DNA from: Candidatus Izemoplasma sp.
Lineage (GTDB): Bacteria; Bacillota_I; Bacilli_A; Izemoplasmatales; Izemoplasmataceae
DNA length: 42,738 nt
NCBI GenBank assembly: GCA_007117625.1
Contig: SKGE01000004.1
Coordinates: 1 to 42,738, forward strand
Direction: 5' to 3'
Made by a program: the position numbers and the translations under genes. Shown here in pieces: positions 680 to 27,095 of this stretch (within the stretch, counting starts at the first letter, position 1; each line of letters opens with the position of its first letter). The notes beneath the pieces are model-generated. The model was not told the DNA's origin and did not search any database. It worked only from the letters and a program-made list of their open reading frames with translations.

Positions 680-3181
680 ATGTTAAAAAAATTGTTTGAT
701 CCGGGACGTAAAGCGCGCAAGCAACTCGACGCATTTGCAGAACAAGTTATCGCTTTAGCACCGGAGGTTAAAAGACTTACAGATGATCAAATTAAAGAAA
801 AAACGGAGTCATTTAAAGCACGCGTTAAAAATGGTGAAACGTTAGAGGAGATCGCAGTAGAAGCTTTTGCGATCGTACGCGAAGCATCAACGCGAGTTAC
901 TGGAATGACACCTTTTAAAGTACAAATCATGGGTGCTATGGTCATCCATCAAGGGAACATCGCAGAAATGAAAACTGGTGAAGGGAAAACCTTGACCGCA
1001 GTTATGCCAGCATATTTAAACGCTTTAACCGGTGATGGCGTTCATATCGTAACTGTTAATGAGTACCTAGCAGCACGTGAGGCTGAAGGAGAAATTGGAG
1101 AGATATTTCGCTTTTTAGGACTTACTGTGGGGCTAAACAAGCGTGAGATGACAAAAGCAGAAAAGCGTGAAGCCTATAACAGTGATATACTTTACTCAAC
1201 GAACAATGAGTTAGGTTTTGATTACTTAAGAGATCACATGGTAATCTATAAAGAAGAAATGGTTCAAAGACCCCTCAGCTTTGCTATTATTGATGAGGTC
1301 GATTCAATTTTAATCGATGAAGCACGTACCCCCTTAATTATCTCCGGTGGTGCTAAGAGCACGGCAAATTTATATTTACAAGCGCAGGCCTTTGCCCGCT
1401 CCTTGACTGAAGATGATTACGATATTGACATCAAAGGAAAATCAGTTTCGCTAACCGCAGACGGGATTGCGAAAGCGGAGCGTTACTTTTCAGTTGACAA
1501 CTTATATGATTTAGATCACGTAAGTCTGTTGCACCATATCAATAATGCCGTTAAAGCAAACTTTACGATGGAAAATGATGTCGATTATGTGGTACAAGAT
1601 AACGCCGTTGTGATTGTCGATCAGTTTACAGGACGTTTGATGCACGGACGCCAGTTTAGTGAAGGGTTACACCAAGCGCTAGAAGCAAAAGAAGGTGTTG
1701 AGATTAAAAAAGAAACCTCAACCCTCGCAACGATTACCTTTCAAAACTTCTTTAGAATGTACAGTAAACTTTCAGGAATGACCGGAACAGCGAAAACAGA
1801 GGAAGAAGAATTTAGAAATATTTATAACATGCTCGTCATTGAAATCCCTACGAATGAACCCGTGATTCGTGAGGATGCTAACGATGTGATATTTGCGACA
1901 ATGAAAGCGAAGTATAACGCCATCGCAGATGAAATCAAAGCTCGTAACGAAATCGGACAACCGATTCTTGTTGGGACAATTTCAATTGAAAGCAGTGAAC
2001 TCTTAAGCAAACTCTTAAAACGACGTGGCGTAAGACACGAAGTCTTAAACGCGAAACAACATGAGCGTGAGGCACAAATCATCGAAGATGCTGGTAAAAA
2101 AGGCTCAGTCACCATCGCAACGAATATGGCAGGTCGTGGAACCGACATTAAATTAGGCGAAGGTGTTCGTGAAGTTGGTGGACTCGCAGTCATCGGAACA
2201 GAGCGTCATGAGTCACGCCGGATCGATAATCAGCTTCGCGGACGTAGTGGTCGACAAGGGGATCCGGGATTCTCTAGGTTTTTCCTATCAGCAGATGATG
2301 ATTTACTAAAACGTTTTGGTGGAGACAGCTTCAAAAAACGTATTGAAATGCTTACGAGAAGTAAGGGTGAAGATTCTGAAAAGCCAATTGATTATGGTAT
2401 TTTCTCACGCTTTATAAAACGAGCTCAAAAACAAATTGAAGGAAACAACTTTGACCGCCGTAAAACGGTTTTACAATATGACGAGGTCTTAAGAAAACAG
2501 CGCGAAATTATTTACCAACAACGGCGTGACATTTTATTAAAAGAAAGTGTTACAGATATTGGCGAATCTATTGTTCATCGCCATATTGAGCGCATGGTTG
2601 ATCAACATGTCGATTTTGATAAGAAAAAACCTATCGTTGAAGTGGATCGTTTGTTCGATACACTAAATGGGAACGTGTTCCATATCGATGCTCTCAAAAA
2701 ATCCGACTTTAAACAAGATCCTGAGGCTATGAAAGCATATTTGCACGATGCCATTGATCACCAGTTATCACAAAAAAGAAAATCGTTTGGAGAAGAGAAG
2801 TATAACGAATTCTTCAAAGCGATGATGCTTCGTGTCGTCGATACTTTTTGGGTTCAACACATCGATCAAATGAGTGAGTTAAGACAAAGCATTTCACTGC
2901 GTTCATATGCGCAACAAAACCCACTTCGAGAATATCAAGAAGTTGGATATACGATGTTTGAAGAGATGATTGTATCGATTGAAAACGATGTTACACGCTA
3001 CGCTCTACGCGCTGTCATACGCGATCAAGTGAAGCGAGTTCAAGTCGCAAAACCGACTGCGACCCACTCAGGGAAAGATGCTCCAGAAAAACGAAAACCA
3101 CGCCGCTCAACTAAAGTTGGACGTAACGATCCATGTCCATGCGGTAGCGGAAAGAAATATAAGCACTGCCACGGGCGGTAA
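680..3181 (+). CDS. secA: Preprotein translocase ATPase SecA
   Basis: SecA is the ATP-driven motor that pushes unfolded preproteins through SecYEG at the cytoplasmic membrane. At 833 aa it is close to the usual Firmicutes length (about 840). Visible motifs are Walker A GEGKT (residues 100-104), Walker B DEVD (205-208) followed by the IDEARTPLIISG block, and the helicase-like motifs MAGRGTDIKLG and QLRGRSGRQGDPG. The C-terminus is the zinc-binding SecB/ribosome tail NDPCPCGSGKKYKHCHGR with its C-x-C-x8-CH pattern. The start is set by GAGGTGG at 669-675, a few bases before the ATG. secG lies at 38.5 kb in the same window. Confidence 0.98.
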   Translation: MLKKLFDPGRKARKQLDAFAEQVIALAPEVKRLTDDQIKEKTESFKARVKNGETLEEIAVEAFAIVREASTRVTGMTPFKVQIMGAMVIHQGNIAEMKTGEGKTLTAVMPAYLNALTGDGVHIVTVNEYLAAREAEGEIGEIFRFLGLTVGLNKREMTKAEKREAYNSDILYSTNNELGFDYLRDHMVIYKEEMVQRPLSFAIIDEVDSILIDEARTPLIISGGAKSTANLYLQAQAFARSLTEDDYDIDIKGKSVSLTADGIAKAERYFSVDNLYDLDHVSLLHHINNAVKANFTMENDVDYVVQDNAVVIVDQFTGRLMHGRQFSEGLHQALEAKEGVEIKKETSTLATITFQNFFRMYSKLSGMTGTAKTEEEEFRNIYNMLVIEIPTNEPVIREDANDVIFATMKAKYNAIADEIKARNEIGQPILVGTISIESSELLSKLLKRRGVRHEVLNAKQHEREAQIIEDAGKKGSVTIATNMAGRGTDIKLGEGVREVGGLAVIGTERHESRRIDNQLRGRSGRQGDPGFSRFFLSADDDLLKRFGGDSFKKRIEMLTRSKGEDSEKPIDYGIFSRFIKRAQKQIEGNNFDRRKTVLQYDEVLRKQREIIYQQRRDILLKESVTDIGESIVHRHIERMVDQHVDFDKKKPIVEVDRLFDTLNGNVFHIDALKKSDFKQDPEAMKAYLHDAIDHQLSQKRKSFGEEKYNEFFKAMMLRVVDTFWVQHIDQMSELRQSISLRSYAQQNPLREYQEVGYTMFEEMIVSIENDVTRYALRAVIRDQVKRVQVAKPTATHSGKDAPEKRKPRRSTKVGRNDPCPCGSGKKYKHCHGR

Positions 3182-3187
3182 TCCATA

Positions 3188-3212
3188 GACTCAAGAACTT
3201 TCTTGAGTCTTT
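3188..3212 (+). terminator. Hairpin between secA and prfB (weak terminator)
   Basis: A perfect 9-bp stem (GACTCAAGA/TCTTGAGTC) with an ACTT loop lies 7 bases after the secA stop. Only three T residues follow, so it may attenuate rather than stop transcription into prfB, for which no strong separate promoter is seen. Confidence 0.55.
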
Positions 3213-3246
3213 GTGCTATTCATACTAATGTAAAGGACGAACTTTT

Positions 3247-4362
3247 ATGGAACGATCAGAACTCCAACAAAAAATACAAAATTACGAAAAAACCCTTCAC
3301 GAGCTGAAAGGTCTTTTAGATTTAGAAAATCTCACAAAACAAATCGCAACCATCGAACAAAAAACCTACGAACAAGGGTTTTGGGACAATCATGAAACAG
3401 CCAATAAAACGATTGCAGATTTAAAGATTTTAAAGCATAAAGTCGCCAGCTATGAAGCGTTGAATGATTTGCTTGAAAACTTAAAGCTTTCAGATGAGTT
3501 ATTAGAAATTGGTGAGACAGTTGATACGCTTGATCAAGATGTTAATCAGTTTGAAAAAAAGCTCGAAAAGTTTGAAACAAGTCTTTACTTATCTGAATCT
3601 TATGATCCACTTTCAGCGATTATCGAAATCCATCCAGGGGCTGGAGGAACGGAATCACAAGATTGGGCGCATATGCTTTACCGAATGGTAACCCGCTACG
3701 CTGAACAACAAGGATTCTCAATTGAACTTCTAGATTATCAAGATGGTGGTGAAGCTGGTATTAAGAGCGTCACTTTTACGGTCAATGGACCGTATGCTTT
3801 TGGGTATCTTAAAGCGGAAGCAGGGGTTCATCGTTTAGTACGTATTTCCCCTTTTGATGCATCGGGACGGCGTCATACCTCGTTTGCAAGTATTAATACG
3901 ATTCCTCAAATAGACGATACCATTGATGTAGAAGTCCAAGAATCAGACTTGAAAATTGATACTTACCGATCAAGCGGTGCTGGAGGACAAAGCGTTAATA
4001 CTACGGATTCTGCAGTTCGTATTACGCACTTGCCAACAAAGCTTACGGTGACGTGTCAAAATGAACGTTCTCAAATAAAAAATCGAGCAAAAGCGATGCA
4101 AATACTGAAAGGGAAACTATATCAGCTCGAATTACAAAAGCAACAAGAAACCCTAAACAGCATGAAGAATATTGGTTTAAGCAACGCTTTTGGTTCGCAG
4201 ATTCGGTCTTATGTCATGCATCCTTATTCGATGGTTAAAGATCATCGTACCAATATTGAAACTGGAAACGTCCAAAAAGTTTTGGACGGTGATTTAGACC
4301 GGTTCATTTCAGCCTACCTTAAACAACTTGCCAAAGGAGAAGTACACGATGAAAGCACTTAA
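3247..4362 (+). CDS. prfB: Peptide chain release factor 2
   Basis: RF2 releases peptides at UGA and UAA stops. The protein is 371 aa. The stop-codon recognition tripeptide SPF is present in RISPFDASGRRHTSF, and the catalytic GGQ in SGAGGQSVNTTDSAVR. A glutamate-rich N-terminal helical domain precedes these. The usual RF2 programmed frameshift (CTT TGA C near codon 25) is absent: the equivalent place reads CTT TTA GAT (about 3313-3321) and the frame is continuous. An intact RF2 agrees with TGA being a stop in this organism. The RBS AAGGA lies about 10 bases before the ATG. The gene overlaps the downstream membrane-protein gene by 14 bases. Confidence 0.97.
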   Translation: MERSELQQKIQNYEKTLHELKGLLDLENLTKQIATIEQKTYEQGFWDNHETANKTIADLKILKHKVASYEALNDLLENLKLSDELLEIGETVDTLDQDVNQFEKKLEKFETSLYLSESYDPLSAIIEIHPGAGGTESQDWAHMLYRMVTRYAEQQGFSIELLDYQDGGEAGIKSVTFTVNGPYAFGYLKAEAGVHRLVRISPFDASGRRHTSFASINTIPQIDDTIDVEVQESDLKIDTYRSSGAGGQSVNTTDSAVRITHLPTKLTVTCQNERSQIKNRAKAMQILKGKLYQLELQKQQETLNSMKNIGLSNAFGSQIRSYVMHPYSMVKDHRTNIETGNVQKVLDGDLDRFISAYLKQLAKGEVHDEST

Positions 4363-16047: not shown

Positions 16048-16096
16048 ACAAATGTTTGATTAAAGTTACATATAATATATGAAAGGATGTATGCTC

Positions 16097-17818
16097 GTGA
16101 ATAAAGACTATCAGGTGTGGCTGAATCATCCGAAATTAGACAAAGATTTAAAAACGATTTTAATGAACATGTCTGATGAAGCAATTCAAGACGCGTTTTA
16201 CAAACCACTTGCGTTTGGAACGGGTGGTATGCGCGGCGTTATGGGACCTGGGACGAATCGCATGAACGTCCATACCTTGCAAAAAGCCGCCTATGGATTT
16301 GGGAAGTATTTATCAGAACAGTCGGATGCGCCAGATAAAACGGTCGCGATTGCTTACGACAACCGCGAAAACAGTGCTTTATTTGCAAAAACATGTGTTG
16401 AAGTTTTAGCGAGTTTTGGTATTAAATCTTACTTATTTGAAGCTTTAAGACCTACGCCATTACTGTCGTTTGCGGTTCGAGAAACTGCATCTTGTGGTGG
16501 TATCGTTATTACTGCATCACACAACCCTCCGAAATACAATGGCTTCAAAATATATGATGCTGACGGTTGTCAGCTTGTTCCTAAGTATGCCGATCGTGTC
16601 GTCGAACATGTCAATGCAATTGAAGACATATTCTCGATTCCTAAGCTTGACTATGAAAAAGCAGAAAAGCAAGGATTGGTTGAACTATTAAGCCGTGCGA
16701 TGGATAATAGTTATTTAGATGCTATTAAAACCGTTCAGTTTCAACCCGAGGCGAAAAAACAGGTGAAAATTGTTTTTACACCGTTACACGGCGCGAGTCG
16801 AGAGATTGGCTTGAGAAGCTTAACTGAACTTGGTTACGAGGTTATAGCCGTTGAGGAACAAATGATTGCTGATCCAACGTTTAAAACAGTAGAATCGCCG
16901 AATCCTGAAGATGTGAAAGCTTTTGAGTACGCGGTAAAATATGGGAAACAAGAAAAGGCTGATCTGTTAATTGCAACAGACCCAGATGGTGATCGCTTAG
17001 GTATTGCTGTGTTACATAATGGTAAGTACGAGTACTTAAACGGTAATCAAACCGGTGCACTCTTTATAGAATATATTCTAGAATCGCTTAAGGCCTCAGG
17101 AAAGATGCCCGAACATGGTGTAATATATAATACAGTTGTGACCAGTGATTTTGGAGCGGCGATTGCAAAAACATATGGTGTTCGCGTTCAATCGACGCTT
17201 ACAGGGTTTAAGTTTATCGGTGAACAAATGAAGTTGCTTGAGGATACTAAAGAGCAATTCATTATGGGGTACGAAGAAAGTTATGGCTATGTTATCAAAG
17301 ATTTTGTTCGCGATAAAGATGCGATTCAAGCGATGGTGTTGGCAACGGAAATCGCCAATCAACTCAAAGCTAGAAATGCAACTTTAATCGATTACTTACA
17401 TGAGCTTTACGAAAAATATGGAACCTATCGAGAAAAACTTGTAAATATCAATTTAGAAGGCGAAACTGGCGAAAAAGCGATAGAGCGTATTATGGAGTAT
17501 TTTAGAACGACTTGGTTCGATACGTTTGAAGGTGCGAAAGTCGTTATTAAAGAAGACTATCAAAGAAGTATTCGCTATGAGGATGGTCACGAGCACATTA
17601 TGGATTACCCAAAGTCGAATGTCATTAAATATATCCTAGAAGATGATGCATGGTTTGTACTCCGTCCGAGTGGTACCGAACCAAAGCTTAAGATCTACAT
17701 CGCAAAAAAAGCGCCGGGCATCGAAGCTGCAGAACAGCATATTAATAGATTAAAAACCCGTTTGATGGAAACCATCGAAACGTTGAAGACAGATGAAAAT
17801 GAGGATGTGAATACATGA
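16097..17818 (+). CDS. pgcA: Alpha-phosphoglucomutase (PgcA type)
   Basis: Interconverts glucose-1-phosphate and glucose-6-phosphate, linking the glg genes to glycolysis. The alpha-D-phosphohexomutase family blocks are FGTGGMRG, the phosphoserine loop GIVITASHNPPKYNGFK, the metal site ATDPDGDRLG, GFKFIGE, GYEESYGY and the phosphate-binding RPSGTEPKLK. It matches the Bacillus PgcA subfamily in length. The frame opens at ATG 16079, but the only RBS (AAAGGA, 16082-16087) lies inside that extension. The GTG at 16097 (9-base spacing) is therefore preferred, with ATG 16091 as the alternative. The TGA stop overlaps the rnfC start (ATGA), so mutase and Rnf are one transcription unit. Confidence 0.95.
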   Translation: MNKDYQVWLNHPKLDKDLKTILMNMSDEAIQDAFYKPLAFGTGGMRGVMGPGTNRMNVHTLQKAAYGFGKYLSEQSDAPDKTVAIAYDNRENSALFAKTCVEVLASFGIKSYLFEALRPTPLLSFAVRETASCGGIVITASHNPPKYNGFKIYDADGCQLVPKYADRVVEHVNAIEDIFSIPKLDYEKAEKQGLVELLSRAMDNSYLDAIKTVQFQPEAKKQVKIVFTPLHGASREIGLRSLTELGYEVIAVEEQMIADPTFKTVESPNPEDVKAFEYAVKYGKQEKADLLIATDPDGDRLGIAVLHNGKYEYLNGNQTGALFIEYILESLKASGKMPEHGVIYNTVVTSDFGAAIAKTYGVRVQSTLTGFKFIGEQMKLLEDTKEQFIMGYEESYGYVIKDFVRDKDAIQAMVLATEIANQLKARNATLIDYLHELYEKYGTYREKLVNINLEGETGEKAIERIMEYFRTTWFDTFEGAKVVIKEDYQRSIRYEDGHEHIMDYPKSNVIKYILEDDAWFVLRPSGTEPKLKIYIAKKAPGIEAAEQHINRLKTRLMETIETLKTDENEDVNT

Positions 17819-19113
17819 TAGCTAAAACAAAAAGAGTTAGCGATTATAAGCAGTTGAACAAAGAACTACCAACCTTGCGTTATGTAGACCCAGAATATGT
17901 TTACATCAATCTCACAACGAACCGCTGTGAAGAGTATCGCCTTGATGTGAAAAAAGGAGACTATGTAAAGCTTGGTCAAATTCTTGGAGAGCGCGATGGT
18001 TGTTTCTTTAAGCAACCAATTTATGCGACTGTCAGTGGTCATATTGAGGACAAGGTGACTAAAATTGATGGGACCGGTATTGAGGTTGAATGCATTACCA
18101 TCCGAAATGATTTTCAGGATACCTATGATGAAACGATTACTGACAGACCGGAAAATGTGATTGAACATTTAACCCAAAAAGAAATGGTTGACATCGTTAA
18201 AGAAAAAGCGTTGGTCGGCCTAGGTGGAAGTGGGTTCCCAACCTATATCAAACTGGCGACAGAAGAAAAAATTGATACAGTCGTGATTAATGCGATTGAG
18301 TGTGAACCATATTTAAGCAGTGATTATCGTCTAATCAAAGACCAACCAGATGAAATCTTTAATGGACTTAAATACATTATGCAAGCCGTAAATGCTAAAC
18401 AAGGGATTATTGCTGTTAAGAAAACCAAAAAAGAACTCATTGAAGTGTTAGAGAACGAACAAAAACGTTTCCAAGACTTAAACATAAAAATTGCTAAGTT
18501 AGGAGATTATTACCCACAAGGATGGGAAATTGAAACGTTTAAAAATGCCACAGGAATAAAGGTTCCGATTGGGGATCTTCCAATGAAACATGGGTTGTTA
18601 GGTTTTAATGTTTCTACCACAGAAAGTATTTATGAAGCGATTAAACACAATTTACCAGTGACAAAACGCTTTGTTACGGTAAACGGTGATGGCGTGAAGT
18701 TCCCACAAAGCATTCGTACTCGTGTTGGAACGAGTGTGAAAGACTTGATTAAGTTGAGTGACGGCTTTGTTGAAGATGCTGGTAATATAGAAATCGTTAT
18801 TGGGGGTCCAATGATGGGATCTTCTGTAAAAAATGATGATGTTATTATCACGCCAACAACTACCTCTGTTTTAGTCTTTAAGAGTGTTGATTACAAAGAA
18901 GAACCATGCGTTCGTTGCGGGTCATGTGTCTATAGTTGTCCTGTAGATATTACACCGGTATCAATTATGAATGCTGTTAAACGAAACGATAAAGAAGCAA
19001 TAAAAGATTTAAGTGCGAACAAATGTATTGAGTGTGGGCTCTGTGCTTACGTTTGCACAAGTAAGATACATGTAACAGACTACGTGAGAAAGGGTAAATC
19101 TTTGATTGGGTGA
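17815..19113 (+). CDS. rnfC: Electron transport complex subunit RnfC
   Basis: A peripheral, cytoplasmic subunit of the ion-pumping ferredoxin:NAD+ oxidoreductase, carrying the NADH/FMN-binding fold and two [4Fe-4S] clusters. The protein is 432 aa, close to clostridial RnfC. Visible features are the N-terminal barrel-sandwich-like region (PIYATVSGHI), the glycine-rich nucleotide/FMN loop GLGGSGFPT starting at residue 135, INAIECEPYLSSDYRL, and two ferredoxin motifs, C365-x2-C-x2-C-x3-CP and C404-x2-C-x2-C-x3-C. The start overlaps the end of pgcA by 4 bases. It leads the rnf order C-D-G-E-A-x-B, as in many Firmicutes. Confidence 0.96.
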   Translation: MIAKTKRVSDYKQLNKELPTLRYVDPEYVYINLTTNRCEEYRLDVKKGDYVKLGQILGERDGCFFKQPIYATVSGHIEDKVTKIDGTGIEVECITIRNDFQDTYDETITDRPENVIEHLTQKEMVDIVKEKALVGLGGSGFPTYIKLATEEKIDTVVINAIECEPYLSSDYRLIKDQPDEIFNGLKYIMQAVNAKQGIIAVKKTKKELIEVLENEQKRFQDLNIKIAKLGDYYPQGWEIETFKNATGIKVPIGDLPMKHGLLGFNVSTTESIYEAIKHNLPVTKRFVTVNGDGVKFPQSIRTRVGTSVKDLIKLSDGFVEDAGNIEIVIGGPMMGSSVKNDDVIITPTTTSVLVFKSVDYKEEPCVRCGSCVYSCPVDITPVSIMNAVKRNDKEAIKDLSANKCIECGLCAYVCTSKIHVTDYVRKGKSLIG

Positions 19114-19119
19114 TGATGA

Positions 19120-20373
19120 ATGAAAATAGTTGAAAAAAGTGCACCTCATCTTAGGAAACCAAATGCCTCTGTTGTAAGAATGATGCGTGATGTTGTGATT
19201 GCGCTGATGCCGCTTGTGATTTTTGCAATCTATAATCATGGACTTGATGCGGTAGTGATTTTAGCAGCGGCGATTGGTTCGATGGTGGGGACAGAGTATA
19301 TTTACTACCAAATTGTTGATTACGTTAAGCGTGATCGCACAAAACATGAAGAAATAAAAGATAAAATTGCTGGATTTAACAAACAGATAGAAACTGCTAA
19401 AGCAGCCTATCAAGAAGATTCTAACCAAGAACTATATGATGAGACTGTTGAAAAGCTGAAAGCGGAAATCCGCAAAGCAAAAGACGAGTTGCGTGCGTAT
19501 AAACAAGCTTCTACCAAAGAAGAGAATAAACGTTTCCATCTTTTCAATCGTAATTTCACATTATATAACTATAGTATTTTAGTTAGCGGAATTATCTTCG
19601 GATTAACGGTACCTGATAGCACACATTTTATGATTGTTATTATCGGTGGTGTGGCAGCGACACTTCTTGTCAAGATGATTTTTGGTGGGATGGGTCAAAA
19701 CATCTTTAACATTGCTGGCTTTGCAAGAGCGTTTATCGCTTTAGGCTTTGGTGCAGCAGTGGGTGTTTCAAACCACTTACCAGTGCAAGATGATGGTTCA
19801 GCAGGCGCGACGGTTCTAGGAAGCCTTACAAGCAACCCTTTTACAGAGCCTTCAACGTTCTCAATTTGGGATATGTTTTCAGGTATTGGTTTTCCAGGTG
19901 CCATCGGAGAAGCTAGTGCTTTACTTATATTAGCTGGGGCACTTTATATGTTTGTGAGAAAGTCATTTGATGTCTTTGTACCACTTGTCTATGTAGGAAC
20001 CGTGTTTGTATTAAGTACTGCAGTGATGGTTCAACAAGATATCGGTTGGTGGTATCCAATGACACACATCTTTAGTGGTGGACTCTTATTTGGGGCTGTG
20101 TTTATGGCAACAGATCCAATTACGATTCCAGTCACACGACCAGGTCGCGTTTATTTTGCTTTCGGTCTTGGGGTTATTACCTTTGTGATTCGTTTGTTTG
20201 GGCAATATCCAGAAGGTGTGGTTTTCGCCATCTTAATTATGAACATGTTTGTGCCGGCGATTGATTACGCAAAATGGTCTAAAAACAAGTTCAGTTTAAA
20301 ATCTTCATTAATCTTTTCTGCGGTCATTTTATTGACGATTTTCGCAGTATGGGTAGGTGCTTCAAATGTTTAG
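19120..20373 (+). CDS. rnfD: Electron transport complex subunit RnfD with coiled-coil insertion
   Basis: A membrane subunit that carries covalent FMN. The core is recognisable: the start SAPHLRKPNASVVRMMRDVV, then KMIFGGMGQNIFNIAGFARAF, and the FMN-threonine site SAGAT (T231) followed by many TM segments. At 417 aa it is about 70-90 residues longer than typical RnfD. The excess lies between TM2 (ending TEYIYYQI) and TM3 (starting near LYNYSILVSG), at about residues 68-140. This stretch is highly charged and heptad-like (KDKIAGFNKQIETAKAAY, EKLKAEIRKAKDELRAY) and is predicted to form a coiled-coil hairpin. The start ATG follows the rnfC stop by 6 bases. Confidence 0.94.
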   Translation: MKIVEKSAPHLRKPNASVVRMMRDVVIALMPLVIFAIYNHGLDAVVILAAAIGSMVGTEYIYYQIVDYVKRDRTKHEEIKDKIAGFNKQIETAKAAYQEDSNQELYDETVEKLKAEIRKAKDELRAYKQASTKEENKRFHLFNRNFTLYNYSILVSGIIFGLTVPDSTHFMIVIIGGVAATLLVKMIFGGMGQNIFNIAGFARAFIALGFGAAVGVSNHLPVQDDGSAGATVLGSLTSNPFTEPSTFSIWDMFSGIGFPGAIGEASALLILAGALYMFVRKSFDVFVPLVYVGTVFVLSTAVMVQQDIGWWYPMTHIFSGGLLFGAVFMATDPITIPVTRPGRVYFAFGLGVITFVIRLFGQYPEGVVFAILIMNMFVPAIDYAKWSKNKFSLKSSLIFSAVILLTIFAVWVGASNV

Positions 20374-21703
20374 TAAATTTAAAATCGCATTTGTGTTACT
20401 CCTAATTGGGGCCTTTAGTGGCTTAGCGATTTGGGGTACGTACACATTGACATATGATCAGATTCAAGAAAACCGTGCAAGAGCACGTTTAGAAATGTAC
20501 TTAGATATGTTTCCAGATATGGATACAACGCTTGAAGATCCAGACGATATAAGTGGTCCGATTTTAGGGATGCGCTTGGTTGAAGAACCAGAACATAGTT
20601 CAGTCTTTGAGGTGTATGAAGTTTACGACAGTAATAGTAATCAACTCGGATATGTGATGCGTGGTCGAGGCAACAATGACTTCGGTTATGCAGAAGTTAT
20701 CGTAGGGGTTGATATGAACGGTGTAATTATCGATGTTCTTATTTCGGATACAGATAATACACCGAGTTATGTAACGCCACTGATTAATAACTACTTAGTG
20801 AATTTTGCAGGGCAAACGTTGAGCGATGTCAGCTTTGATTCAAACACAGGTGCTACGGCAACGTATGGTGTTGTTAGACGCGTTGTTGAAGATTCGATGT
20901 TGTTGATTGAGGGAGACCCGATCTTATCAGTTTATCAAGATGCTATCGCAGAAGTCGATCGCTATGAAACAAGCTACGAATTCTTACTCGGAGTCATTTC
21001 TGAAGAGGTTCGTTTAATCGACAGCAATAACGATACTGTCGGATTTGCATATCTTGGCCGTGTCGATTATGAAGGTCATGAATACCGCATCGGTGTTATA
21101 GTAAGTGACGATGAAGTTCTAAAAGCCTTTGTCGTTGTTGAAGAAACCGTTCCATCAGGATTGAGCGAGGCATTGAGTGCTTTTGATAGCTACTTAGACC
21201 AAGCGATTGAAGATATTACCGATATTTCCGCAAGTGGTGATTTAGAAGAAGCGCTTAAAGCGATTTTAGAAGCTGGCTTAAGACGCTCTACCGAGAGTGA
21301 AGAAGTGCGCTTTGCACGCAATTATTTCTTGGATGCGGAAACCGTTGAGATGACGCAAATCGATGAAGGGCGTCTAAACATGATGGTAAAAGTGTTTGAT
21401 GATCAAGGCGATCAGCTTGGATATCTCATTGAGGGGCGCGATACAAATGACTTTGGCTTTGTTGAAGTTGTTGTCCAAATAGATATGGATGGAATCATTA
21501 TCGATGTTGTTATATCAGATCACGATAATACGGAGGGTTATGTAATCCCATTGATCAATGACTATATGGGCAACTTCTCCGGTCAACCACTCAATGATGT
21601 TGAGTTTGATACAAATACAGGTGCTACAGCGACTTATGGTGTTGTCCAGGCAGTCGTTGAAGAAGCTTATACGTATTATGAAAATGAAATGGGGAGTGAA
21701 TAA
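20366..21703 (+). CDS. rnfG: RnfG with duplicated FMN-binding modules
   Basis: RnfG is a one-TM protein with an extracytoplasmic FMN-binding domain that binds flavin through a threonine in [ST]GAT. Ordinary RnfG is about 200 aa with one such site; this protein is 445 aa. The N-terminal TM is at about residues 7-27. Module 1 ends in DSNTGATATYG (T164) and module 3 ends in DTNTGATATYG (T421). Between them (about 205-260) is a shorter, similar stretch (DSNNDTVGFAYLGRVDYEG) without the TGAT site. The shared phrases are QLGYV...GR, ...GVDMNGVIIDVLISD and QIDMDGIIIDVVISD. The frame opens at GTG 20357, but the RBS spacing favours ATG 20366, overlapping rnfD by 8 bases. Confidence 0.92.
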   Translation: MFSKFKIAFVLLLIGAFSGLAIWGTYTLTYDQIQENRARARLEMYLDMFPDMDTTLEDPDDISGPILGMRLVEEPEHSSVFEVYEVYDSNSNQLGYVMRGRGNNDFGYAEVIVGVDMNGVIIDVLISDTDNTPSYVTPLINNYLVNFAGQTLSDVSFDSNTGATATYGVVRRVVEDSMLLIEGDPILSVYQDAIAEVDRYETSYEFLLGVISEEVRLIDSNNDTVGFAYLGRVDYEGHEYRIGVIVSDDEVLKAFVVVEETVPSGLSEALSAFDSYLDQAIEDITDISASGDLEEALKAILEAGLRRSTESEEVRFARNYFLDAETVEMTQIDEGRLNMMVKVFDDQGDQLGYLIEGRDTNDFGFVEVVVQIDMDGIIIDVVISDHDNTEGYVIPLINDYMGNFSGQPLNDVEFDTNTGATATYGVVQAVVEEAYTYYENEMGSE

Positions 21704-21705
21704 TC

Positions 21706-22464
21706 ATGGCACAGGCTAAAGCAAAGAAAAAAGACCTTGGTTATTTGGCAAACCTTACCAAAGGGTTTATAAAAGAAAATCCAATCTTTACGTTTATGCT
21801 TGGACTCTGTCCAGCACTTGCGGTGACAGGGACGGTAGAAACATCTTTAGGGATGGGACTGCTTGTAATCTTCGTACTCGTAAGTAGTAATGTTGTGGTT
21901 TCGTTAATCAAAGATTTTATCCCTGCAGAAGTTAAAATTCCATCTTACATTGTAATTATTTCAACCTTTGTTACGATGGTTGGGTTGCTGACTGAGGCTT
22001 ATGCGCCAGCGCTGTTTGATTCGCTTGGAATCTTTATTCCACTGATTGTGGTAAACTGTTTGATTTTAGGACGTGCTGAAAGTTATGCATCTAAAAACAA
22101 TGTGTTAAACAGTGCAATCGATGGACTTGGAATGGGACTTGGATTTTTAGGTGCCATGGTTTTAATTGGATTCTTCCGCGAGTTTTTCTCAACGGGAGCC
22201 ATCGCATACGGGGTTTACTTACCGCTTGCGGTTGAAGGATCAATTGTGAATCTTGAATGGTATATTTTAAACATTGCGGTCTTAGCTGGACCAGCAGGTG
22301 GCTTCTTAGTCATTGGATTGTTGCTTGGTTTATTTAATAGTATCGCAATTACGAAGCGTAATAAAAAAGAGCGTGAGCGCCAAAAAATGATTGAAGAGAA
22401 AAAGCGTTTGGCACTTGAGCGTAAGCGTAAAAAAGCAATGGAAAGCGCAGGTGGTAAAGCATGA
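21706..22464 (+). CDS. rnfE: Electron transport complex subunit RnfE
   Basis: An integral membrane subunit homologous to NqrD/RnfA. With RnfA it holds the intramembrane iron-sulfur centre. Conserved cysteines are C35 in MLGLCPALAV and C118 in VVNCLILGRAE, each next to a TM helix. About six TM segments are visible. The protein is 252 aa, longer than usual (about 200-220). The excess is a C-terminal Lys/Arg/Glu-rich tail from about residue 219 (RNKKERERQKMIEEKKRLAL), likely a cytoplasmic helix. The ATG follows rnfG by 2 bases with a GGGGAG-type RBS. It overlaps rnfA by 4 bases. Confidence 0.95.
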   Translation: MAQAKAKKKDLGYLANLTKGFIKENPIFTFMLGLCPALAVTGTVETSLGMGLLVIFVLVSSNVVVSLIKDFIPAEVKIPSYIVIISTFVTMVGLLTEAYAPALFDSLGIFIPLIVVNCLILGRAESYASKNNVLNSAIDGLGMGLGFLGAMVLIGFFREFFSTGAIAYGVYLPLAVEGSIVNLEWYILNIAVLAGPAGGFLVIGLLLGLFNSIAITKRNKKERERQKMIEEKKRLALERKRKKAMESAGGKA

Positions 22465-23066
22465 GTTGGACAGTATTCTTTGTAGCAATTTTTTCCTCGA
22501 TGCTTATCAATAATGTTGTGTTAATGAGATTTTTGGGTGTCTGCCCGTTTATTGGAGTTAGTAAAAAGACCAATTCAGCGATTGGGATGAGCATGGCTGT
22601 ATTGTTTGTTATGGTGGTTGCATCGCTGGTCAGTTATTTGCTCTATTATTTGGTATTAGTCCCACTCAATATTGAATATGTACAAACGATTGGATTTATT
22701 TTAATCATTGCCTCACTCGTACAACTTGTGGAAATGTTCATTAAGAAAGTGAGTAAGAAACTGTATAAGAGTTTGGGAGTTTACTTACCACTGATTACGA
22801 CAAACTGTGCAATCTTAGGGGTTGCCGTTGCCAACATCAGTGAAGATTTTGCAGATCAATATGGCGTATTCCCTGGACTGGCCGTTGCGGTTACAACCGC
22901 TTTTGGTGCGGCACTTGGGTTTGGTCTAATCATGTTTGCATTCTCAACGATTCGCGAACGTTTAGAAGCTGCCGTTATTCCAGAGGCTTGGAAAGGTGTG
23001 CCGATATCACTCATTACAGCTGGTATTATGGCTTTAGCTTTCGCAGGTCTTGGAGGGATCGTTTAA
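22461..23066 (+). CDS. rnfA: Electron transport complex subunit RnfA
   Basis: A 201-aa six-TM membrane subunit (RnfA/NqrE family) of standard length. The two cluster-binding cysteines are C28 in MRFLGVCPFIGV and C116 in TTNCAILGVAV, forming with RnfE the pseudo-symmetric intramembrane Fe-S site. The ending SLITAGIMALAFAGLGGIV is typical. It starts within the end of rnfE (ATGA), and its TAA stop is directly followed by the GTG of a small cysteine protein gene. Confidence 0.96.
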   Translation: MSWTVFFVAIFSSMLINNVVLMRFLGVCPFIGVSKKTNSAIGMSMAVLFVMVVASLVSYLLYYLVLVPLNIEYVQTIGFILIIASLVQLVEMFIKKVSKKLYKSLGVYLPLITTNCAILGVAVANISEDFADQYGVFPGLAVAVTTAFGAALGFGLIMFAFSTIRERLEAAVIPEAWKGVPISLITAGIMALAFAGLGGIV

Positions 23067-23237
23067 GTGCATTTAGGAATAGGATTCTTAGTTATTTTAG
23101 TTGTCATTTATATCGGAACCTATGTATTAAATAAACGTATACCAGCTCCGATTGATAACAAGATTAGCGCTGCAAAATGTGGTGCATGTAGCAACTTTAG
23201 TTGCGCAATAAAACAACAAACAGCGGAGGAGAAATAA
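23067..23237 (+). CDS. Small one-TM protein with CxxCx4C motif in the rnf operon
   Basis: A 56-aa frame starting with GTG immediately after the rnfA stop and ending one base before the rnfB ATG; its last codons include the rnfB RBS (GGAGG). Residues about 2-21 form one hydrophobic TM segment, followed by a basic turn (NKR) and a short soluble part with three cysteines, KCGACSNFSCAIK. C38-x2-C41-x4-C46 has the same spacing as the first three cluster cysteines of RnfB (CGACSYPGC); a fourth is missing. It could be a trimmed RnfB paralogue, an assembly factor comparable to NqrM (small, one TM, four Cys, serving the NqrDE Fe centre), or a FeoB-associated-type Cys protein. The sequence does not decide. 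Perfect operon spacing supports a real gene. Confidence 0.75.
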   Translation: MHLGIGFLVILVVIYIGTYVLNKRIPAPIDNKISAAKCGACSNFSCAIKQQTAEEK

Positions 23238-26429: not shown

Positions 26430-26447
26430 ACGATTGAGGTGAGCCTG

Positions 26448-27095
26448 ATGACATGGAAAGAAGCACTTACAGATGTAAAAGCAGATCCACGTTTTAGTCA
26501 ACTGATTGAGACAGTAAAAGTGCGGATGCAACATACGAATGTATATCCGCCTTATTCAGATTGGTTTCGAGCATTAAAGTTAACACCACTCGAACATGTA
26601 AAAGTGGTAATTTTAGGCCAGGACCCATACCATCAACCTAACCAGGCTAATGGGCTTGCGTTCAGTGTCCATAGGGGAGTTAAAACACCTCCTTCACTCG
26701 TTAATATTTTTAAAGAGTTAAAAGATGACTTAGGCTTTAACATTCCACCCCATGGAGATTTAACGCCATGGGCTGAACGTGGAGTCTTACTTTTGAATAC
26801 TACACTAACAGTTGAAGATTCGAAACCAATGGCGCATGCTAAGCTAGGTTGGACATGGTTCACAGACAATGTCATTCAAGCCGTTTCTGCAAAACCAACG
26901 CCTGTAGTCTTCATGCTTTGGGGCGCGCATGCAAAATCGAAAATACCGTTGATTGCAAGCCACCATTTGATCTTAACCGCACCCCATCCAAGTCCACTAT
27001 CGGCGCACCGTGGATTTTTTGGTTGTAAGCACTTTTCGAAAGCGAACACATTTTTAAAATCACAAGGGCTTGAGCCAGTGAGTTTTCAGTTATAG
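26448..27095 (+). CDS. ung: Uracil-DNA glycosylase (family 1)
   Basis: Removes uracil from DNA as the first step of base excision repair. The protein is 215 aa from the ATG at 26448, chosen because GAGGTGA (26436-26442) lies 5 bases before it; the frame also opens at GTG 26439, inside the RBS. Family 1 motifs are the water-activating LGQDPYH (D59), the uracil-pocket segment GLAFSV, LLLNTTLTV, and the DNA-intercalation loop HPSPLSAHRGFFG near residue 180. Length is normal. It stands alone between ppdK and the folate-transport gene. Confidence 0.97.
   Translation: MTWKEALTDVKADPRFSQLIETVKVRMQHTNVYPPYSDWFRALKLTPLEHVKVVILGQDPYHQPNQANGLAFSVHRGVKTPPSLVNIFKELKDDLGFNIPPHGDLTPWAERGVLLLNTTLTVEDSKPMAHAKLGWTWFTDNVIQAVSAKPTPVVFMLWGAHAKSKIPLIASHHLILTAPHPSPLSAHRGFFGCKHFSKANTFLKSQGLEPVSFQL

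Follow-up and report, generated by a model that had tools for sequence, protein, structure and literature searches.

The stretch analysed here, referred to as the window, comprises 42,738 nt from Candidatus Izemoplasma sp. (assembly GCA_007117625.1, contig SKGE01000004.1) and carries an operon for Rnf, a central energy-conserving complex of anaerobes. Its genes lie in the order pgm-rnfC-rnfD-rnfG-rnfE-rnfA-small-rnfB-ppdK-udg, in which the small gene is an open reading frame (ORF) at 23067-23237 with the product VHLGIGFLVILVVIYIGTYVLNKRIPAPIDNKISAAKCGACSNFSCAIKQQTAEEK, 56 amino acids (aa) in length. As a preliminary description of this DNA had proposed, the GTG-started frame fills the gap between rnfA and rnfB. 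The TAA of rnfA ends at 23066, leaving a gap of 0 nt, and the stop codon of the small ORF (23235-23237) stands 1 nt ahead of the rnfB ATG (23239). This ORF is a genuine gene of the Rnf complex, conserved in the bacterial class formed by Izemoplasmatales and relatives. It is unannotated, as had been anticipated, and no Pfam or NCBIfam profile fits the protein or the other members of its family.

The product has the architecture first attributed to it, one transmembrane (TM) helix followed by C38-x2-C41-x4-C46, a spacing identical to that of the first three cluster cysteines of RnfB (C45-x2-C48-x4-C53). AlphaFold models residues 2-24 as a helix with a predicted local distance difference test score (pLDDT) of ~95, while most of the tail scores 58-65. 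Because K and R are enriched on the C-terminal side of the TM helix in 39/39 homologues, the C-terminus with its cysteine tail is predicted to be cytoplasmic. A strong TM segment followed by CxxCx4C occurs nowhere else among the 380 stop-to-stop frames of at least 40 aa in the window.

Table 1. Features of the small gene and of the surrounding rnf operon (window coordinates).
Feature	Coordinates	Strand	Remarks
Small Rnf-associated protein gene, unnamed family	23067..23237	+	GTG start, 56 aa
Likely ribosome-binding site GGAGGG	23052..23057	+	inside rnfA 3' end, 9 nt upstream of small-gene GTG
TM helix codons, residues 2-24	23070..23138	+	C-terminus predicted cytoplasmic
Codons for invariant motif C38-x2-C41-x4-C46	23178..23204	+	
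rnfB ribosome-binding site GGAGG	23225..23229	+	within last codons of small ORF
Minimal rnfB, 101 aa	23239..23544	+	TM + PF04060 FeS domain (4 Cys), ferredoxin domains absent
rnfA	22461..23066	+	TIGR01943 above cut-off
rnfE, long basic C-terminal tail	21706..22464	+	PF02508, NF009070 above cut-off
rnfG-like, two flavinylation-type motif copies	20369..21703	+	SNTGATATYG / TNTGATATYG
rnfD with inserted charged segment	19120..20373	+	
rnfC	17815..19113	+	
pgm, phosphoglucomutase type	16079..17818	+	directly ahead of small gene in f2/f3
udg, uracil-DNA glycosylase type (by inspection)	26439..27095	+	follows small gene in f2/f3

Judged by rnfA, the closest named relatives are Candidatus Izimaplasma metagenome-assembled genomes (MAGs). 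The cultured relative Xianfuyuplasma coldseepsis zrk13 also possesses an RNF complex (PMC8397711). In every genome of the close-relative family f1 with an assembled locus, rnfA is followed by the small gene and then by a short rnfB. The small gene starts inside the end of rnfA or right after it (−4 to +1 nt from the stop), the rnfB start usually lies −4 to +3 nt from the small-gene stop (up to 35 in some), and a purine-rich stretch upstream accompanies this start/stop abutment, as in the window. Among 27 f1 members the start position, the TM helix and P28 are conserved, and N22 and the three cysteines are invariant. The start position, TM helix, N22, P28 and the three cysteines are also conserved class-wide, with C38, C41 and C46 invariant in 39/39 homologues. 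The frame, start and cysteines on which the preliminary description had staked its proposal are therefore kept both in f1 and across the class. The gene is under purifying selection, a point raised in the same description: the ratios of nonsynonymous to synonymous substitution rates (dN/dS, NG86) of unsaturated close pairs are 0.08 (L002/L003), 0.19, 0.06, 0.17 and 0.31, a range of 0.06-0.31. Co-loss in f1 genomes without an rnfA match was considered and rejected; five of them end a contig at pgm-rnfC, which marks assembly gaps.

The gene extends well beyond this family. Restriction to one family was discarded first on the strength of f3 and f2 homologues at pgm-udg loci and then on that of the class-wide rnfA-small-rnfB arrangement. 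In a survey of 395 class genomes, many of them incomplete and assigned to the class as reported by the search tool, a hidden Markov model (HMM) of diverse members (profile A2) matches 184, nearly always with one copy. Of 20 contexts sampled from 11 other families, 18 have the small gene exactly between rnfA and a short rnfB, the two exceptions being f7 genomes in which it lies ahead of a dCMP deaminase gene. Gene coordinates place it immediately 3' of rnfA, with a short rnfB after it, in 62 of 73 genomes belonging to other families; most of the remaining positions fall in f5, f7 and some f18 genomes, in which it precedes dCMP deaminase. The off-operon copies of f7 and f18 lie downstream of aspS, from which a HesA-like gene often separates them. 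All three groups (f5, f7 and these f18 genomes) encode elsewhere a second type of Rnf in which rnfA is directly followed by rnfB. In f2/f3 the gene is single-copy at a pgm-small-udg locus, with Rnf located elsewhere. Since pgm and udg also flank the entire f1 operon, the f1 and f2/f3 loci are related through gain or loss of rnf genes around the small gene. The rnfA-small-rnfB arrangement is probably ancestral in the class, and the off-operon small genes would mark sites that rnf genes have left. Neither this class-wide range nor the off-operon copies had been noticed in the preliminary description, which also overlooked the truncation of rnfB.

The class-wide pattern reads TM-LNKKTPxPExC-x(n)-C-x2-C-x(3-5)-C. 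Of 39 homologues, 25 have its further upstream cysteine (P-x2-C), which the window lineage lacks. Judged from these sequences, the ancestral cysteine site is P-x2-C...C-x2-C-x4-C, apparently reduced to the last three cysteines in the window lineage.

Distribution ties the gene to Rnf. Among the 395 class genomes, 182 have both RnfA and the small protein, 18 have RnfA only, 2 have the small protein only (G055, 85 % complete; G289, 86 % complete) and 193 have neither (Fisher p ~3e-88, genomes counted without phylogenetic correction). This co-occurrence is partly due to linkage in most genomes, and the informative families are the unlinked ones: f2, f3, f5, f7 and part of f18 keep the small gene, usually single-copy, with Rnf located elsewhere. 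Such retention away from Rnf, mostly in single copy, is as expected for an assembly factor more than for a stoichiometric subunit. Both marks of an Rnf operon component, a conserved position among the rnf genes and co-occurrence with RnfA, were found for the small gene. Two of the 'RnfA only' genomes are exceptional. G402 has a 39-aa TM-CxxCx3C ORF between rnfA and rnfB, which indicates that the HMM overlooks divergent copies. In G398 (L294) the small gene is absent and RnfB is full-length (266 aa), while RnfE (reverse complement 2824-3537) ends in a ECGGDCTHCHGITCFEEY tail with the motif Cx3Cx2Cx4C. Such a tail occurs in one of 70 RnfE sequences, and this single case is suggestive.

RnfB proteins of known structure combine one PF04060-type domain with a C-terminal domain that accepts ferredoxin and houses two to seven [4Fe-4S] clusters (PMC12174285). 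Throughout the class, RnfB consists of a TM segment and one FeS domain, ~95-115 aa in all (the window; L030, L031, L087, L271-L290, L347-L361), and has no ferredoxin-accepting domain. RnfB paired with the small gene is always this short, at 95-115 aa, apart from one 194-aa frame in L275. The truncation suits the suggestion, made in the preliminary description, of an extra electron-carrying subunit, which now ranks as the main rival explanation, possible though rather unlikely. The small protein would be structural, with its cluster relaying ferredoxin electrons to the minimal RnfB; the cysteine site would act alone, as a dimer or shared with RnfA, RnfE or RnfB, and would offset the lost ferredoxin domains. 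The short RnfB wherever the small gene is found, the full-length RnfB of G398, the one class genome shown to lack it, the cysteine spacing matching that of RnfB and the tightly coupled position between rnfA and rnfB all argue for such a subunit. Against it stand the presence of only three cysteines in the window lineage, their variable spacing and the poorly conserved tail. The type-2 Rnf operons, moreover, have an equally short RnfB with no small gene in place, and a similar ORF in L091 adjoins a full-length RnfB. The wider proposal, a class-wide Rnf whose RnfB lacks the ferredoxin-accepting domain and in which a 40-75-aa cysteine membrane protein is an added redox subunit with a new electron-entry cluster, is doubtful.

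The shared motif also invites comparison with the PF04060 domain of RnfB, which likewise combines an N-terminal TM segment with CxxCx4C. Unlike that domain, the small protein has no fourth cysteine and no CGAC.YPGC...CKPG context. With three cysteines only, neither the window protein nor the 27 members match PF04060, and the small-protein profile aligns only weakly with the RnfB N-terminus (hhalign 13-47 %). The earlier idea of a split-off part of RnfB, extended here to a duplicated piece or a decaying ORF, draws on the common spacing; RnfB, however, retains its own TM segment and complete four-cysteine PF04060 domain, and purifying selection and class-wide conservation speak against decay. 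This explanation is largely refuted and now very improbable.

Searches of PDB chains and plasmid records gave no match to the small protein, and no description of such a gene between rnfA and rnfB was found in the open-licence literature searched. The nearest profile is PF12669, the FeoB-associated cysteine-rich membrane protein, which is also short, with a single TM segment and a C-terminal cysteine motif. Homologues from f3 match it at E values of 5e-4 to 8e-2; the best scores, 20.4-21.8 bits (E 6.4e-4 at 20.4), lie below the gathering cut-off of 27, and the window protein has no match. The cysteine spacing of the small protein differs from the Cx3-5Cx2-3Cx6-8C of PF12669 (PMC8749426). No feoB-like neighbour was seen in the inspected genomic contexts.

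Related and similar proteins also occur outside the class-wide arrangement. Paralogues adjoin genes for CopA-like ATPases and two-component systems, or PAP2/rhomboid genes (L062-L073, L076, L077, L240), the PAP2/rhomboid-linked ones having an additional downstream cysteine. In Clostridiales SIG356 (L091, 4322-4489), a 55-aa TM-CxxCx5CxxxC ORF lies between rnfA and a full-length rnfB and scores 15.4 bits with A2 and 5.1 bits with A5. Directly after rnfA in Opitutales, Acidobacteria and an unassigned MAG (L152, L153, L154, L156) stands a gene for a 70-75-aa TM protein with the pattern AWRR.FP...LGCxGC...C, followed in L153/L154 by an NAD/FAD-binding reductase-like gene at the position expected of rnfB. 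Similarity of the Opitutales, Acidobacteria and Clostridiales ORFs to the window family is marginal or not significant, which suggests that such proteins probably arose more than once.

RseC is larger than the small protein and has two TM helices. Pfam scans gave no RseC/MucC match, and the small protein has a single TM helix. RseC/MucC is an accessory protein that partners the Rnf-type complex RsxABCDGE (PMC12174285). RnfH of Azotobacter Rnf1 is a lineage-specific extra Rnf subunit, but it is cytoplasmic and cofactor-free (PMC12174285). The latter property lends some weight to an unlikely alternative in which the small protein is a structural, stabilising or redox/metal-sensing subunit whose cysteines bind Fe2+ or Zn2+ or form disulfides, with no role in cluster delivery or electron transfer. 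The very short tail, predicted at low confidence, and the paralogues in metal-transport contexts (L064, L068, L069, L240) point the same way, whereas the invariance of the three cysteines in all aligned homologues and the Nqr precedent, which favours iron handling, count against it.

That precedent is NqrM (PF04400, DUF539), the maturation factor of Na+-NQR, which acts in the maturation of an iron centre (PMC12174285, PMC6209661). Its target is a [2Fe-2S] site homologous to that of Rnf (PMC12174285). The preliminary description had likened the small protein to NqrM, and membership of that family is rejected: the window protein, the 27 members (E<=10) and the other homologues have no PF04400 match, and the gene lies inside the rnf operon, not linked to nqr, and tracks Rnf rather than Nqr. 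A genome-wide NqrM search gave no match either, but control NqrM sequences went undetected as well. Among 13 genomes with an Nqr-type match only, none has a small-protein match. In two of the 13, one of them G023, the rnf locus is cut at a contig end, as it is in G015 and others beyond the 13, so the Nqr-only argument is carried by about eight near-complete f12/f15 genomes. G000 (L074, C68:26000-36847) also has an Nqr-type operon, beside which no NqrM-like ORF was recognised.

In Rnf, RnfA and RnfE together ligate a [2Fe-2S] centre, and no NqrM is known for this complex. The most likely role of the small protein, with about an even chance of being right, is delivery of iron or Fe-S to this RnfA-RnfE site in the manner of NqrM. 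The cytoplasmic cysteine tail would bind a labile Fe-S cluster or iron and so supply RnfA and RnfE with material for their intramembrane [2Fe-2S] centre, much as NqrM does for Nqr, though from outside the NqrM family. Of the likeness drawn earlier, the mode of action may hold, and the Rnf assembly factor that had been proposed is still the best candidate mechanism. This role is favoured because the small gene tracks Rnf even where unlinked, the cysteine motif is predicted to be cytoplasmic, PF12669 is weakly related and a comparable motif is fused to RnfE in G398. The low-confidence tail and the three cysteines of the window lineage would also suit transfer better than a permanent four-cysteine cluster.

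Several observations weigh against delivery. Nqr has the same [2Fe-2S] centre, yet Nqr-only genomes lack the small gene, as do many other Rnf operons. The constant partnership with a truncated RnfB fits electron transfer equally well, and the fold is not confined to Rnf, since it recurs in paralogues next to genes for CopA-like ATPases or PAP2/rhomboid proteins. Finally, the binding of iron or a cluster and the presence of the protein in the complex are both predictions from sequence.

Other components of these operons have features of their own. RnfD of the window carries a charged, probably coiled-coil insert (residues ~60-140) that is not in the RnfD profile, and the RnfG-like protein (20369-21703) is doubled and might carry two covalent flavin mononucleotides. 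RnfA of f2 (L347-L350, L361) has a cysteine-free C-terminal extension of 30-40 aa. Several f1 genomes have two or three Rnf operons of differing types (G011, G025, G031; L353-L356), some with Nqr in addition.

A class-wide cysteine membrane protein together with a minimal RnfB presents a testable candidate for [2Fe-2S] assembly or electron entry in Rnf. If this is true, gene finders and Rnf reconstitutions that omit the small ORF would have missed a component.
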